From Pseudomonas mohnii (GTDB lineage Bacteria; Pseudomonadota; Gammaproteobacteria; Pseudomonadales; Pseudomonadaceae): 64,000 nt of DNA. The position numbers were made by a program, and so were the translations under genes. The stretch spans positions 2,166,001-2,230,000 of the forward strand of contig NZ_FNRV01000001.1 of the NCBI RefSeq assembly GCF_900105115.1, given 5' to 3'. The notes beneath the pieces were generated by a model. That model saw only the letters and a program-made list of their open reading frames with translations, did no database searches and was not told the DNA's origin. Positions 4,458 to 51,125 of the stretch are shown one piece after another (position 1 is the first letter of the stretch; the number at the start of each line of letters is the position of its first letter).

Positions 4458-5402
4458 TCAAGCCTCAGGCCAAAAAGCCCGAATCCCCGCCACACCCTGG
4501 GCACCTGCCGCCCAAGCCTTCTGAACCTCCGCAGGCCCAACGCCGCCCAGCAAAAACACTGGCTTGCTGAAGCCCTCGATCAAAGTCGAGGCCTGTTCCC
4601 AACCCAGCGGTTGAGCGCCCGGATGAGTGAGGGTCGGCTGCACAGGTGACAGGGTCACGAAGTCCACGCCCATCTCTTCGGCCAGCGCCAGTTCTTCGGC
4701 GTTATGGCAGGAAGCCGCCAACCAGCGCGACGCAGGCAACGGACGACCGGCCGCTGCGTATTTGCGCAGCTGTGCCGAGGTAATGTGCCAACCGGCGGAA
4801 GGGAAATCTCCCAGCCATTCGAACGGCCCCTTGATCATCAACTGCGCCTTGCCGGCGCACAGTCCCACCGCGTCCACAGCCAGATCACGATACTTGGGGT
4901 CGTAACCGTTCGGTGCGCGCAGCTGGATCAGCTTGATGCCGCCCGCGATGGCTTTCTGGATGCCCTTCAGCAGGGCCGGGGTTTCCAGATCCTCCGGGGT
5001 GATCAGGTATTGCTCGGGCAAACGGGCAGCGGCGACGATAGGCCGATTGGCCTCAGGAAACTCGTAATTCGAGAGCTCACGGGCGGTCACCCAGGCCAAA
5101 GGCTGACCTTCGGCACCATGAGGTTCGCCGGTGAACGCCGAGACTTCCCAGACATCCAGCAATACTTGCTTGTCCGGGTAGTCGTGTTGAACCTTGATCA
5201 GCGGTCGCGCGACGTCGACGACAATGCCCAGTTCTTCGTGAAGCTCGCGACCAAGCGCCGTTTCAACGGACTCGCCGGCCTCGACCTTGCCACCAGGGAA
5301 TTCCCACAGCCCCCCCTGATGCTGGGTGTCGGCACGGCGAGCGATGAGAATCTTGCCGCTGCTATCACGGATAACGGCGGCGGCTACGTGTACTCGTTTC
5401 AC
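4458..5402 (-). CDS. Nudix hydrolase (MutT-like) fused to a ThiE-like domain
   Basis: The 314-residue fusion has an N-terminal MutT-type Nudix domain with box GGKVEAGESVETALGREL followed by HEELGI, which fits GX5EX7REUXEEXGU. A C-terminal domain of about 180 residues resembles thiamine-phosphate synthase (ThiE), ending in FLLGGVGPAEVQKAWAAGAQ. The Nudix half is expected to hydrolyse 8-oxo-dGTP; the role of the ThiE-like half in such fusions is unclear. I chose the GTG start at 5402 (protein VKRVHVAAAV), because it overlaps the upstream GST stop as GTGA; a longer reading from 5453 would run well into the GST gene. The pair is translationally coupled. Confidence 0.9.
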   Translation of the reverse strand: MKRVHVAAAVIRDSSGKILIARRADTQHQGGLWEFPGGKVEAGESVETALGRELHEELGIVVDVARPLIKVQHDYPDKQVLLDVWEVSAFTGEPHGAEGQPLAWVTARELSNYEFPEANRPIVAAARLPEQYLITPEDLETPALLKGIQKAIAGGIKLIQLRAPNGYDPKYRDLAVDAVGLCAGKAQLMIKGPFEWLGDFPSAGWHITSAQLRKYAAAGRPLPASRWLAASCHNAEELALAEEMGVDFVTLSPVQPTLTHPGAQPLGWEQASTLIEGFSKPVFLLGGVGPAEVQKAWAAGAQGVAGIRAFWPEA

Positions 5403-6031
5403 CGCTTGATTTCCTCCAGTCCGGCCTTCTGCCAGGCCTTGAAGGCTGGCCATTGGTAGATGGTTTGAACATAGGCTTCGTCAGCTGCGGACAGCTTCAC
5501 CTGATAGGTGCGCAGGCGCACGGCGATGGGCGCAAAAAACGCGTCGGCCAGGGTGGCCCGGCCAAACAGGTACGGCCCGTTTTCCGTCGCGACGGCGCGG
5601 CACTCGGCCCACAACGCGGACATGCGTTCAATGTCCGCCTGCACGTCGGCCGGAACCGGCGACAGAGGTGCATCATGGCTCAGGTCGAATGGCATGTTGC
5701 CGCGCATGGCGAAGAACCCGGCATGCATCTGTGCGCACGCCGAACGCGCCTGGGCACGGGCCGCAGTGTCTTTGGGCCAGAGGCCAGCATCGGGGAATTG
5801 CTCTGCCAGGTACTCGGCAATCGCCAGCGAATCGGCGACGGTGCCGTGTTCGGTTTTCAGCAGGGGTACTTTGCCGGTCGGCGAATGCTTGAGCAGACGT
5901 TCACGGGTGTCCGGCTGGTTGAGCTTGATCAATTCTTCGGTGTAGGAGGCACCGGCCAAGTCCAGCGCCAGAGCGCCGCGCAGGGACCAGGAGGAAAACA
6001 GTTTGTCGCCGATGATCAGGTGCAGGCTCAT
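5399..6031 (-). CDS. Glutathione S-transferase family protein
   Basis: This 210-residue protein starts MSLHLIIGDKLFSSWSLRGAL, with the family's Ser in the glutathione-activating N-terminal thioredoxin fold. SPTGKVPLL carries the cis-proline, and ADSLAIAEYLAEQFP the conserved Ser that binds the gamma-glutamyl group. The C-terminal half is helical. The ATG at 6031 is used, because upstream in-frame codons translate the adjacent REP sequence. The stop overlaps the GTG start of the Nudix-ThiE gene, so the two form an operon. The substrate is not known. Confidence 0.9.
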   Translation of the reverse strand: MSLHLIIGDKLFSSWSLRGALALDLAGASYTEELIKLNQPDTRERLLKHSPTGKVPLLKTEHGTVADSLAIAEYLAEQFPDAGLWPKDTAARAQARSACAQMHAGFFAMRGNMPFDLSHDAPLSPVPADVQADIERMSALWAECRAVATENGPYLFGRATLADAFFAPIAVRLRTYQVKLSAADEAYVQTIYQWPAFKAWQKAGLEEIKR

Positions 6032-10558: not shown

Positions 10559-11014
10559 ATGGCATTTCGCCCTCTTACGGCCAGAGCACCCGCCGTCCTG
10601 CTTCGCGAAGCCAAACCGCTCAAGGCCATTCTCGGCCACGCTCAACGCCTTGGACATCTGCAGCGGCTGCTGGAAAGCCAACTGCAACCGGCCGCCCGCG
10701 AGCATTGTCATGTAGCGTCGTGGCGCGAAGGCAGTTTGTTGCTGATTGTCACCGACGGTCATTGGGCCACTCGACTGCGTTATCAACAAAAGCGCCTGCA
10801 GCGGCAATTGCAGATGTTCGACGAGTTCACCAACCTCACGCGAATCCTGTTCAAGGTGCAGCCGCCTACCGTTCAGCAAGGTGCCGCCGGGCATACCATG
10901 GATTTGTCCAACGATGCCGCCGCCACCATACAGGCGACAGCCGACGGCATCAGTGACCCGAACCTGCGGGCCGCGCTGGAACGATTGGCGGCGCACGCCA
11001 GGCCCAAGGGTTGA
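10559..11014 (+). CDS. dciA: DciA family (DUF721) replicative helicase loader
   Basis: This 151-residue protein starts MAFRPLTARAPAVLLREAKPL and contains the DUF721 core (VASWREGSLLLIVTDGHWATRLRYQ), a KH-like fold. In bacteria lacking DnaC, DciA interacts with DnaB and helps load it at the origin. The C-terminal third is low-complexity and Ala-rich, as usual for gammaproteobacterial DciA. The gene is divergent from secA and convergent with the HerA-like ATPase gene. Confidence 0.85.
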   Translation: MAFRPLTARAPAVLLREAKPLKAILGHAQRLGHLQRLLESQLQPAAREHCHVASWREGSLLLIVTDGHWATRLRYQQKRLQRQLQMFDEFTNLTRILFKVQPPTVQQGAAGHTMDLSNDAAATIQATADGISDPNLRAALERLAAHARPKG

Positions 11015-48346: not shown

Positions 48347-49666
48347 ATGGATAACTCCAATACCCTGCCCCGTGGGTCGGCTACCGTGCCGACAAGAGAA
48401 CGCACCACCTCCAGCCGTATCAAGTCGATCTTCAGCGGCTCGGTCGGCAACATGGTCGAGTGGTATGACTGGTACGTCTACGCCGCTTTCTCCCTGTACT
48501 TCGCCAAGACCTTTTTCCCGAAAGGCGACACCACCGCACAACTGCTGAACACCGCTGCGATCTTCGCCGTGGGCTTCCTGATGCGCCCGATCGGTGGCTG
48601 GCTGATGGGCCTGTATGCCGACAAGGTCGGGCGCAAAAAGGCCCTGATGGCCTCGGTGTACCTGATGTGCTTCGGCTCGCTGCTGATCGCCCTGAGCCCG
48701 GGCTATGAAATCATTGGCATCGGCGCGCCGATCCTGCTGGTGTTCGCCCGCTTGCTACAGGGCCTGTCGGTCGGTGGCGAGTACGGCACCTCGGCCACTT
48801 ACCTGAGTGAGATGGCGACCAAGGAACGCCGCGGTTTCTACTCCAGTTTCCAGTACGTGACCCTGATCTCCGGCCAGCTCATCGCGTTGGCCGTGTTGAT
48901 CGTATTGCAACAATTGCTGACCACCGAGGAGCTGTACGCCTGGGGCTGGCGCATTCCGTTCGCCATCGGCGCACTCTGCGCCATCGTTGCGCTGTACCTG
49001 CGTCGCGGCATGGAAGAAACCGAATCGTTCACCAAGAAGGAAAAGGCCAAGGAAAGCGCGATGCGCACCTTGCTGCGTCATCCAAAGGAACTGATGACCG
49101 TGGTCGGCCTGACCATGGGTGGCACCCTGGCGTTCTACACCTACACCACGTACATGCAGAAATACCTGGTGAACACCGTCGGCATGAGCATTTCCGACTC
49201 CACCACCATTTCCGCCGCCACGCTGTTCCTGTTCATGTGCCTGCAACCGATCATCGGCGGCCTGTCGGATAAAATCGGTCGTCGGCCGATCCTGATCGCC
49301 TTCGGCATCCTGGGCACCCTGTTCACCGTGCCGATCCTCACCACCCTGCACACCATCCAGACCTGGTGGGGCGCGTTCTTCCTGATCATGGCGGCGCTGA
49401 TCATTGTCAGCGGCTACACCTCGATCAACGCGGTAGTCAAAGCCGAACTGTTCCCGACCGAAATCCGCGCCCTGGGTGTTGGCCTGCCCTACGCGCTGAC
49501 CGTGTCGATTTTCGGTGGCACCGCTGAATACATCGCACTGTGGTTCAAGAGCATCGGCATGGAGACCGGATACTACTGGTATGTCACTGCCTGTATTGCC
49601 GTATCGCTGCTGGTGTACATCACCATGAAAGACACCCGCAAACACTCGCGGATCCTCACGGACTGA
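48347..49666 (+). CDS. kgtP: Alpha-ketoglutarate/dicarboxylate MFS permease
   Basis: The 439-residue transporter has 12 membrane helices and the metabolite:H+ symporter signatures NMVEWYDWYVYAAFSLYFAK, LMRPIGGWLMGLYADKVGRK and LLQGLSVGGEYGTSATYLSE. It is closely similar to E. coli KgtP over its length as I recall that sequence (for example TYTTYMQKYLVNT and ALGVGLPYAL). It imports alpha-ketoglutarate with protons. Its promoter and the enhancer palindromes indicate control by the adjacent sigma-54 two-component system. A terminator follows. Confidence 0.93.
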   Translation: MDNSNTLPRGSATVPTRERTTSSRIKSIFSGSVGNMVEWYDWYVYAAFSLYFAKTFFPKGDTTAQLLNTAAIFAVGFLMRPIGGWLMGLYADKVGRKKALMASVYLMCFGSLLIALSPGYEIIGIGAPILLVFARLLQGLSVGGEYGTSATYLSEMATKERRGFYSSFQYVTLISGQLIALAVLIVLQQLLTTEELYAWGWRIPFAIGALCAIVALYLRRGMEETESFTKKEKAKESAMRTLLRHPKELMTVVGLTMGGTLAFYTYTTYMQKYLVNTVGMSISDSTTISAATLFLFMCLQPIIGGLSDKIGRRPILIAFGILGTLFTVPILTTLHTIQTWWGAFFLIMAALIIVSGYTSINAVVKAELFPTEIRALGVGLPYALTVSIFGGTAEYIALWFKSIGMETGYYWYVTACIAVSLLVYITMKDTRKHSRILTD

Positions 49667-49980
49667 GTCCAGCGGCATCACATAAAAAGGGGCGGACCGT
49701 CGGGGTCCGCCCCTTTTTTGTTTGGCATGGCATGAAAAAACCTTCACCCCCGTGAGAGCCGGATTAATCACGAGTTAATGCTTAACCACCACCCTGAACC
49801 TGCCTGATCGATAAACGCTGATGCACTCACTCAGACCTTGAAAGCAAAAATATCTGCGGGCCTTAACATCTATTTAATCGATTGTTTCTAGCATTTATTT
49901 GCGCTTTTTAATCAGTTTAATTGGCGTAGCATGAGACCCATGCCCAAGACACAACCGCCAACGAATCTGGAGAAATGAAG
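49667..49980. other. Intergenic region between kgtP and the repeat-protein gene
   Basis: After the kgtP terminator the remaining 260 bp are unusually AT-rich (TTTTTAATCAGTTTAATTGG near 49906), compatible with a promoter for the repeat gene. TAGCAT at 49927-49932 might be a -10 box. No ORF is supported. Confidence 0.4.
49684..49719 (+). terminator. Rho-independent terminator of kgtP
   Basis: AAGGGGCGGACC and GGTCCGCCCCTT pair around a 4-5 nt loop followed by T6, 18 bp after the stop. Confidence 0.92.
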
Positions 49981-50313
49981 ATGAAAACCAAACTGTTCCT
50001 CGCCCTGGCCCTCACCGTACTGACCGCCAACACCTTCGCCGCCGACGGTTTTGACCGTACCGGCTCCGCCGTTGCAGCAGACGGCTATGACCGCACTGGC
50101 TCGGCCACCGTTGCCGCTGATGGCTACGACCGCACCGGTTCCGCCACCGTTGCCGAAGACGGCTACGACCGCACGGGCGGCGCCACCGTTGCCGAAGACG
50201 GCTACGACCGCACAGGCGGCGCCACCGTTGCCGAAGACGGCTACGACCGCACAGGCGGCGCCACCGTCGCCGAAGACGGCTACGACCGCACGGGCGGCGC
50301 TACCATCAGCTGA
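49981..50313 (+). CDS. Secreted tandem-repeat protein (seven DGYDRTG units)
   Basis: The 110-residue protein has a Sec signal peptide MKTKLFLALALTVLTANTFA, cleaved after residue 20. The entire mature part is seven head-to-tail repeats: one of 12 residues (ADGFDRTGSAVA), two of ADGYDRTGSATVA, then four of EDGYDRTGGATVA, the last ending ATIS. At the DNA level the unit is 39 bp and nearly identical in the last four copies. I start at 49981 (GGAG at good spacing) rather than 49975. Related Pseudomonas proteins are, I recall, annotated only as hypothetical or phage infection protein. Function unknown. Confidence 0.85.
   Translation: MKTKLFLALALTVLTANTFAADGFDRTGSAVAADGYDRTGSATVAADGYDRTGSATVAEDGYDRTGGATVAEDGYDRTGGATVAEDGYDRTGGATVAEDGYDRTGGATIS
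50095..50310 (+). repeat. 39-bp coding tandem repeat
   Basis: Units of 39 bp encode (A/E)DGYDRTG(S/G)ATVA. The last four copies differ at very few bases (for example CACGGG versus CACAGG, GTTGCC versus GTCGCC), a sign of recent duplication. Copy number is a likely variable between strains. Confidence 0.8.
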
Positions 50314-50332
50314 TCCGCAATCGCGGCACCAC

Positions 50333-50352
50333 AGCCCGGCTTCGGCCGGGCT
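50333..50352 (+). terminator. Stem-loop after the repeat-protein gene
   Basis: AGCCCGGC and GCCGGGCT close a TTCG tetraloop, 20 bp after the stop codon. There is no strong T-run. Confidence 0.6.
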
Positions 50353-50377
50353 TAGTCATTTCTGGAGAACAGTAAAA

Positions 50378-50434
50378 ATGACAACCGCACAAAACCTGTG
50401 GGTCCCCATAGAAGCCCCCAACCCTTGCGATTGA
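50378..50434 (+). CDS. Possible 18-residue small ORF
   Basis: An ATG at 50378, 10 bp after GGAG, opens a short frame encoding MTTAQNLWVPIEAPNPCD. It lies between the repeat-protein terminator hairpin and the flavin reductase gene. Nothing else supports it, so treat it as a candidate. Confidence 0.2.
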   Translation: MTTAQNLWVPIEAPNPCD

Positions 50435-50495
50435 CTGGAAATTAGTCATCGTCGCCAGCAATATGACCCTCTCTCGAAAAACCCAGGTTTACCCG

Positions 50496-51125
50496 ATGCC
50501 CGACGATATCCACTATTACGAACCTGCCAACGGCCATGGCCTGCCCCACGATCCGTTCAACGCAATCGTCGGCCCACGCCCTATTGGCTGGATTTCCTCC
50601 CAGGATGCCGATGGCCATTTGAATCTGGCGCCTTACAGCTTTTTCACGGCCTTCAATTACATTCCGCCGATCATTGGTTTTTCCAGCATCGGGCGCAAAG
50701 ACAGCCTGAATAATATCGAACAGACCGGTGAGTTCGCGTGGAACCTGGCGACCCGGCCATTGGCCGAACAGATGAACCAGAGCTGCGCCATGGTTGGCCC
50801 AGAGGTGAATGAATTCGAGCTGTCCGGGCTGACCACCGTTGCCTCGAAAGTCATTTCAGTGCCACGGGTGGCCGAAAGCCCGGTGTCCTTCGAGTGCAAG
50901 GTCACGCAGATCATTCAGTTGCAACGGGCAGACGGGAATGTGGTGCCGAGCTGGCTGATTCTGGGCGAAGTGGTCGCCGTGCATATCGCCAGGAAACTGT
51001 TGAAGGACGGTGTATACGACACCGCCGCGGCAGAGCCGATTCTGCGCGGCGGCGGACCGGCGGACTACTTCCAGTTGGGGCCTGAGGCCTTGTTCAAGAT
51101 GTATCGCCCGGGGGCGGTCAGGTAG
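50496..51125 (+). CDS. Flavin reductase-like FMN-binding protein
   Basis: The 209-residue protein has the flavin reductase-like split barrel: FNAIVGPRPIGWISSQDADG, NLAPYSFFTAFNYIPPIIGF and SIGRKDSLNNIEQTGEF. ATG 50496 (MPDDIHYYEPANGHGLPHD) is preferred to 50463, though both have weak ribosome sites. It may reduce free FMN for a partner oxygenase or bind FMN in another role. Its stop abuts the stop of the next minus-strand gene. Confidence 0.88.
   Translation: MPDDIHYYEPANGHGLPHDPFNAIVGPRPIGWISSQDADGHLNLAPYSFFTAFNYIPPIIGFSSIGRKDSLNNIEQTGEFAWNLATRPLAEQMNQSCAMVGPEVNEFELSGLTTVASKVISVPRVAESPVSFECKVTQIIQLQRADGNVVPSWLILGEVVAVHIARKLLKDGVYDTAAAEPILRGGGPADYFQLGPEALFKMYRPGAVR

Follow-up and report, generated by a model that had tools for sequence, protein, structure and literature searches.

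The repeat gene at 49981-50313 of the window (the whole 64,000-nucleotide stretch of Pseudomonas mohnii DNA that was analysed) is near certainly a member of a Pseudomonas-restricted multigene family of repeat proteins that carry a signal peptide. Its closest known relative appears to be PA4881 of P. aeruginosa, judging from layout, promoter, core motif, profile searches and intermediate sequences, and the promoter sequence predicts MexT, or else a close MexT paralogue, as its probable regulator. PA4881 is already known as a gene and is uncharacterised; the subfamily of the window differs from it in unit length, unit sequence, locus and box. For the genus-wide family no published description was found in the open-licence literature, which is no proof of absence.

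The gene, its product and its surroundings

The open reading frame is intact. Its product is a Sec-type signal peptide plus seven units of 12-13 residues, with no other part; an earlier note on this DNA had likewise described the mature sequence as repeats only. The features of the gene and its surroundings are:

48347..49666, + strand: MFS metabolite/H+ symporter, upstream neighbour (Pfam/NCBIfam; kept beside orthologues)
49969..49972, + strand: Shine-Dalgarno sequence GGAG, 8 nt before the ATG at 49981 (kept in aligned upstream regions)
49981..50040, + strand: Sec-type signal peptide MKTKLFLALALTVLTANTFA (by eye; predicted cleavage before ADGFD)
50041..50310, + strand: mature protein of 90 residues, seven units ADG[FY]DRTG..., pI 4.05
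50333..50352, + strand: hairpin 3' of the stop codon, possible transcript end (folding z -3.0)
50463..51125, + strand: flavin-reductase-like protein, downstream neighbour (Pfam; kept beside orthologues)

An alternative in-frame ATG is present upstream, at 49975, only 2 nt from the GGAG. The ATG at 49981 is the likelier start, because the GGAG lies 8 nt upstream of it and because most homologues begin with MKTK, MKNK or MKSK. The units of the protein are of the types ADGYDRTGSATVA and EDGYDRTGGATVA, spaced by 12, 13, 13, 13, 13 and 13 residues and followed directly by the stop codon. Tandem Repeats Finder describes the array as 6.3 copies of period 39 (88% matches, score 348), with one further array in the 64-kb window (score 58). 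The near-identity of the last four units in the DNA, from which unit expansion had been proposed, was confirmed in the sequence, and the number of units ranges from 5 to 11 across 23 syntenic genes (that of the window included). In draft genomes such arrays may include stretches that were left unread, as in L191 and L192. Long open reading frames also run in another frame or on the opposite strand of such arrays (window 50051-50434 and L010:4470-5213), and these are probably by-products of a stop-free period divisible by three.

The upstream region and the stem-loop that had been ascribed to the gene both held up, the former being conserved in the aligned upstream regions. The hairpin at 50333-50352 folds with -24.2 kcal/mol for a 59-nt stretch (z -3.0), with 3 out of 200 shuffles folding equally well; it lacks a T-run, and a terminator scan gave no entry for it.

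The mature chain (90 residues, 8.9 kDa) has a pI of 4.05, a net charge of -11 and 20% glycine, and is devoid of Cys, Met, Trp and His; the GRAVY of the protein is -0.67. The signal peptides of this protein and its relatives were judged by eye. Structure prediction, which had been proposed as a check, gave no confident fold: in the AlphaFold2 model (30-row alignment) the mean pLDDT is 46.7, with values of 40-46 from residue 31 on, and the helix at residues 5-18 (the signal) is the sole secondary structure, it being understood that the alignment of repeats is shallow and that low pLDDT on such an alignment is weak evidence for disorder. On a charge-hydropathy plot the protein falls on the disordered side, while 6 out of 37 distinct family rows fall slightly on the folded side. 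A disordered mature chain would fit both the model and the charge-hydropathy result, short of proof.

No Pfam or NCBIfam family scored above its cut-off with the protein, and a search of solved structures (PDB) gave no relative. The match to Phage_zn_bind_6 (16.5 bits versus a cut-off of 27) was taken as a chance match, and a metal or enzyme domain was rejected since the Pfam, NCBIfam and solved-structure searches all stayed below cut-off. Pfam, NCBIfam and inspection of the sequence likewise gave no anchor, lipobox or autotransporter domain, in agreement with the earlier statement that there is no lipobox, enzyme motif or anchoring domain.

At 29 further loci (L014-L042, about 1.5 kb per side) the MFS neighbour is found in 21, the flavin reductase in 22 and both in 20, while in six a DUF2790 gene stands upstream instead, as it does at a paralogue in the window's own genome (L009). 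It follows from the kept context of MFS transporter and flavin reductase that these are true in-place orthologues, with a sister group beside DUF2790.

A genus-wide family with a high turnover of units

A protein search gave 181 relatives at E<=0.01 among 8000 candidates scored, and 140 of 149 Pseudomonas genomes carry a match to the protein, so that the gene belongs to a genus-wide multigene family, which the earlier note had missed. One of the nine genomes without a match (G135) does match the profile of the other subfamilies. Across the order, that profile hits 9 of 244 genomes; these fall into 2 of 112 genera, both of them members of the bacterial family to which the window belongs. Species genomes contain at least 594 matching stretches, at least 395 encoding relatives; among the best 80 of these at least 395 relatives, 78 carry Pseudomonas names and 2 are MAGs labelled Gammaproteobacteria, with no P. 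aeruginosa among them. A mobile or phage origin was rejected, with zero matches in phage records and a single one in plasmid records (P. asturiensis).

Relatives are named in their sources as 'hypothetical', 'heme utilization protein', 'phage infection protein' and, in one case, 'Large exoproteins involved in ...'. The second and third of these names have spread without basis, there being no supporting Pfam or NCBIfam domain in the protein of the window and no match in phage records. The complete family genes examined are short (71-175 residues). One stretch (G028:C5:121609-123213) shows family matches in open frames as long as 333-334 residues, which may be extended arrays or adjoining copies.

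The window's own genome has 12 matching stretches at eight loci, and six genes were read there besides that of the window: one with DGYDRTGSATVAA units (L009), four beginning with MKRQ and built of VAADGSDRLQGNT units (one in L010 and three in L011), and one with DGSDRTPGQTLAA units (L012). The eighth place holds a two-unit protein (L013). The six paralogues have the same type of signal peptide, the same repeat-only layout and homologous upstream regions, but differ from the window gene in their unit types (DGYDRTGSATVAA, DGSDRLQGNTVAA, EGGSDRLIESRVA, DGSDRTPGQTLAA) and in their neighbours (DUF2790, GST or AsmA).

Some details of these loci may be recorded here. The three repeat genes at L011:3604-4044, 5330-5809 and 10573-11013 are near-identical and lie within 7.4 kb with unrelated genes between them, the first two having an upstream stretch in common nearly base for base; this triple is a recent dispersed duplication. 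The gene of the two-unit protein (AEDGYNRTPQGQ; L013:2826-7024) is flanked by a DUF2790 gene on one side and a DsbD/thioredoxin-like gene on the other, and is divergent from the genes of a response regulator and a histidine kinase. Nine DUF2790 genes score over the cut-off in this genome, at least two of which adjoin repeat-protein genes (L009 and L013).

Among orthologues even closely similar genes differ in unit number, the four that begin with MKMKTK having 7, 7, 5 and 5 units (window, L014, L020 and L022). In 96 units of 13 codons from the syntenic orthologues, cut by a pattern that fixed A1, D3 and G4, the T of the DRTG motif is kept in all 96, the R in 95 and the D in 90, while the following G is kept in just 71, which corrects the invariance claimed for DRTG. 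Cutting by fixed steps gave 131 units (some out of register), with D3 in 115, G4 in 117, D6 in 110, R7 in 114 and T8 in 116.

A comparison of copy number and of dN/dS within repeats, suggested earlier as a check, could be made on the same units. Over its whole length the window gene differs from its orthologue in L014 with pS 0.381 and pN 0.042 (pN/pS 0.11). Comparing the 96 units gives a pN/pS of 0.15 inside single genes and of 0.36 across genomes; for positions 6-13, which were left free by the cutting pattern, it is 0.21 and 0.52, respectively; for the fixed-step units, some of which are out of register, it is 0.48 and 0.54. The repeat units evolve under purifying selection, and they are more similar within a gene than between genomes. 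In one orthologue (L021:1501-1833) a unit of the EGGRDRLEEKG kind, typical of another subfamily, stands inside a DGFDRTG array, and a hybrid array with such a unit among DGYDRTG units is also seen in protein P0050, which indicates exchange between paralogues. Frames are not commonly broken across homologues, a point on which the function of the protein had been made to depend: among the matches listed across the genus seven have a stop codon, and two of these (L022 and L025) are shorter intact genes.

The promoter and the probable relation to PA4881

Upstream of the gene three elements can be distinguished:

49868..49882, + strand: nod-box-like LysR-type site ATCTATTTAATCGAT (T-N11-A), with 7 of the 8 fixed positions of the MexT nod box
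49898..49914, + strand: conserved promoter core TTTGCGCTTTTTAATCA (upstream alignment and genus pattern search)
49927..49932, + strand: probable -10 hexamer TAGCAT within the conserved block GGCGTAGCATG (the block is conserved; its reading as a -10 element is putative)

A sigma-70 scan lists nothing at this promoter. In the alignment of 36 upstream regions the majority have the order ATCGATTTAATCGAT, TTTGCGCTTTTTAATCA, GGCGTAGCAT, or the variant found before the MKRQ genes; the element is absent from L040, where a DUF2790 gene runs, and has a diverged form in L026. The pattern GAT-N15-TTTGCGCTTTTTAATCA occurs at 48 sites in 47 of the 149 genomes and at none in the control. All 30 of the pattern loci that were read have a family open reading frame 60-68 bases downstream, a figure that measures specificity (GAT and the 17-base core being fixed by the pattern), conservation being measured by the 36-region alignment. 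Of the other 18 sites, 15 coincide by eye with family places, which leaves those in G029, G036 and G097. As a sequence the exact pattern thus appears close to private to the family, and it picks out just one genome in three. Within the genome of the window it hits the window gene alone; even a looser and longer pattern of the window type (up to 3 mismatches) finds nothing else there, not even the paralogue at L009.

Before other subfamilies (L010, L012, L055-L064 and L072) boxes of an ATCA type are found. With the two promoter types set in box register, their identity is 43.7% over 85 bases, versus 22-31% at 24 other offsets, the second set consisting of 13 rows of which four were chosen by eye and one (L011b) is one base off register. 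This peak at the box register points to one ancestral promoter with two box variants. The form ATYA-N7-YGAT has been given for the MexT nod box (PMC11432991). Scored against it, the 30 promoters of the window type (in which GAT is fixed by construction) have 8 of 8 positions in four cases, 7 in 24 and 6 in two, while each of the 12 rows of the second type has all 8 (nine of them by construction). The spacing of the window box to the core is that of the promoters with a MexT nod box.

A long sequence consensus for MexT has been searched for as well. It reportedly reads ATCA-N5-GTCGAT-N4-ACYAT (Tian, 2009), and in this form it occurs at 61 sites, spread over 44 of the 148 family genomes, versus 1 control site. 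Among 31 such loci that were read, 10 sites front a family gene (L051 included), 15 lie in a pair of ArsR-like and acyl-carrier-phosphodiesterase-like genes (which we take to be of the PA4354/PA4353 kind) and 5 front neither; one locus (L058) is cut by a contig end. The window box does not fit this long consensus, which in the window's own genome fits two places, a family paralogue and L046:1501-1524. At the latter an exact long box stands between an HlyD-like gene and a lipoprotein-like gene without repeats (labels by eye), and the box in L050 precedes the same lipoprotein-like product, whose gene is a candidate member of the regulon.

PA4881 is described in part of PMC3557286 as a tandem repeat protein under MexT, its gene being also bound by PA2206 and 7.7-fold up with PA2206; according to the same part, sensitivity to hydrogen peroxide on disks is not raised in the mutant. 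In a mexT deletion it shows the largest fall (log2 -6.5), listed before mexF and mexE (Table 1 of PMC12607905). A parS/parR table has it at -10.68 and -9.13 (a section of PMC3848899), and it is induced by an enynone (a section of PMC10848761). The absence of an established role, as stated earlier, is therefore true of function, while regulation has been published for this relative.

The product of the adjacent gene PA4880 is the protein of PDB entry 8w1d (as stated in part of PMC11150526). In one genome (G270) a ferritin-like gene is 99% identical to PA4880, and the next gene (locus L214) encodes a 113-residue protein of a signal peptide and repeats (AAFAADGASRTVDRLH...), with a box (two mismatches to the long consensus) and the family spacing. 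By its position beside the PA4880-like gene this protein was taken for PA4881; in another genome (G297) no PA4880-like gene was found in the 6 kb read. A molybdopterin oxidoreductase (PF00174; L214:2726-3520) lies on its far side. In genus g9 a repeat gene (L072) also stands beside a ferritin-like gene, one that matches PDB 8w1d.

With BLASTP no alignment is obtained between the protein of the window and that at the PA4881 position, for which reason the membership of PA4881 rests on layout, promoter, core and intermediates. One family profile (A2) aligns to it by hhalign over the signal peptide and the first core (29 columns, 55% identity, probability 88), another (A1) over the signal peptide alone (probability 43). 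Profile A1 finds the window gene at 1e-25 and, in genus g9, repeat genes with values from 1e-7 to 1e-11, and the protein of L072 in turn matches that of L214 at 6e-26. The core A-[EDAG]-[DGN]-G-x-[DES]-[RKHQ]-[TLS] is present in the units of the window. Like the window protein, the one at the PA4881 position has a signal peptide ending in AFA|ADG (AAFAADGASRT at the junction with the repeats) and a mature part of repeats only, with a core A-[DG]-[GN]-G-x-R-T, a nod box and the spacing to the promoter core seen in the window family. It differs in that its units span some 22 residues and have IDRLHKDMSQAEARL between cores, in its ferritin-like and molybdopterin-oxidoreductase neighbours, and in a nod box with 8 instead of 7 of the 8 positions. 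Because of these long units, its pI of 6.07 and its 5% glycine, 'acidic polymer' is not an apt term for the whole family.

What the proteins may do

For the window gene itself the reading that we tentatively prefer is that of a disordered acidic polymer, induced by stress and exported, that would buffer or shield the envelope, with a probability of about 0.47 for the whole chain of steps. The family and promoter parts of this chain are near certain; regulator, export and disorder we infer, and the buffering or shielding role is a guess. Under its own LysR-type promoter of the MexT nod-box kind, the gene would probably be induced strongly by redox, electrophile or envelope-drug stress, a response published for PA4881. 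Guided by the signal peptide, the product would reach the periplasm or a place further out, and the chain of 9 kDa left after cleavage would remain unfolded there. Such a chain would act by amount and charge and not through a folded site, i.e. as a sacrificial, water-holding, cation-binding acidic polymer, and its capacity would be set by the number of units rather than by their sequence. The latter agrees with arrays whose units are gained, lost and made uniform but which retain the core A-[EDA]-[DGN]-G-x-[DES]-R-[TLS]. A bulk property is suggested because a stress-type LysR promoter, a signal peptide, the lack of Cys, the lack of a fold, a free unit number and an acidic core with a glycine turn come together.

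Two known kinds of protein invite comparison. Hydrophilins are defined by glycine above 6% and a hydrophilicity index above 1. The window protein resembles these and LEA-like proteins in being glycine-rich (20%), hydrophilic, devoid of a predicted fold and probably stress-induced, but its GRAVY of -0.67 misses the index cut-off, it is predicted to be exported and it has no relation to them in Pfam. Within the family GRAVY is below -1 in 8 out of 37 distinct rows, with one more at -1.00 (the mature chain having been cut two residues late in many rows). RTX proteins are rich in Asp and Gly and carry the nonapeptide GGxGxDxUx. The window protein shares with them the Asp/Gly-rich tandem repeats, but has a Sec signal, no such nonapeptide and no match to the haemolysin-type repeat of Pfam.

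The best rival, in itself unlikely, is that the repeats bind metal (Ca, Fe, Cu or a lanthanide), the ED/AD-G-x-D turns supplying carboxylates to a periplasmic metal sponge. Asp occupies positions 3 and 6 in 115 and 110 of the 131 fixed-step units (some out of register), the PA4881-type locus adjoins the PA4880 ferritin gene, and some paralogues lie beside DUF2790 genes, which are described as lanthanide-responsive in P. alloputida KT2440 (an excerpt of PMC11520305). The window protein, however, lacks Cys and His, has no predicted fold and is without relatives in the PDB, and units of the PA4881 kind (DNGSE or GNGSE) offer different side chains. A specific metal or ligand contact, as had been suggested for Asp-Gly-x-Asp, finds no support in these results; the linker, too, varies between lineages. 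It is rather improbable that the protein works past the outer membrane, as a surface or biofilm-matrix protein with the repeat chain as an adhesive or spacer; a Sec signal before a repetitive hydrophilic chain and the one source name 'Large exoproteins involved in ...' would suit this, but there is no anchor, lipobox or autotransporter domain, the complete genes are short (71-175 residues) and no domain backs the source names.

In the case of a multi-copy peptide precursor, the chain would repeat the signal-peptide junction at each unit boundary (TFA|ADG, TVA|ADG and RFA|EDG), and a protease in the periplasm or outside would free many copies of a 13-residue peptide. On inspection, unit boundaries in the subfamilies with 13- and 14-residue units do carry the junction motif again, and the greater likeness of units within a gene than between genomes is what a species-specific signal would lead one to expect. 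The same likeness can, however, reflect the first duplication of the array. Arg at -3 is poor for signal peptidase I, and boundaries such as QRFA|EDG place it there; PA4881-like units (RLADNG) are without the junction motif, and no protease or receptor was seen among the immediate neighbours. Such a precursor accordingly seems improbable, and slightly more so in its specific form, a species-specific acidic peptide precursor under MexT-type stress control that is kept uniform within species by gene conversion. If true, repeated pheromone precursors would have a bacterial analogue here, one that spans a genus. Least credible, and disfavoured here, is a minisatellite in a dispensable frame, with repeats made by slippage and without a selected role: the 5-11 near-identical DNA units and a fixed-step pN/pS of about 0.5 would be in keeping with it, but pN/pS is 0.11 for the whole gene against L014 and 0.15-0.21 within genes, most frames are intact, and both promoter and locus are conserved.

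Whichever role applies, the family bears on a gene that shows the largest fall in the mexT deletion, slightly beyond that of the efflux pump genes (Table 1 of PMC12607905), and has had no function attached to it. The orphan PA4881 thereby acquires a comparative handle, namely a fast-turnover multigene family present in 140 of 149 genomes, together with a promoter pattern that finds its genes. If the products are indeed exported stress buffers, part of the work of MexT-type regulators would lie in the envelope, beyond efflux.
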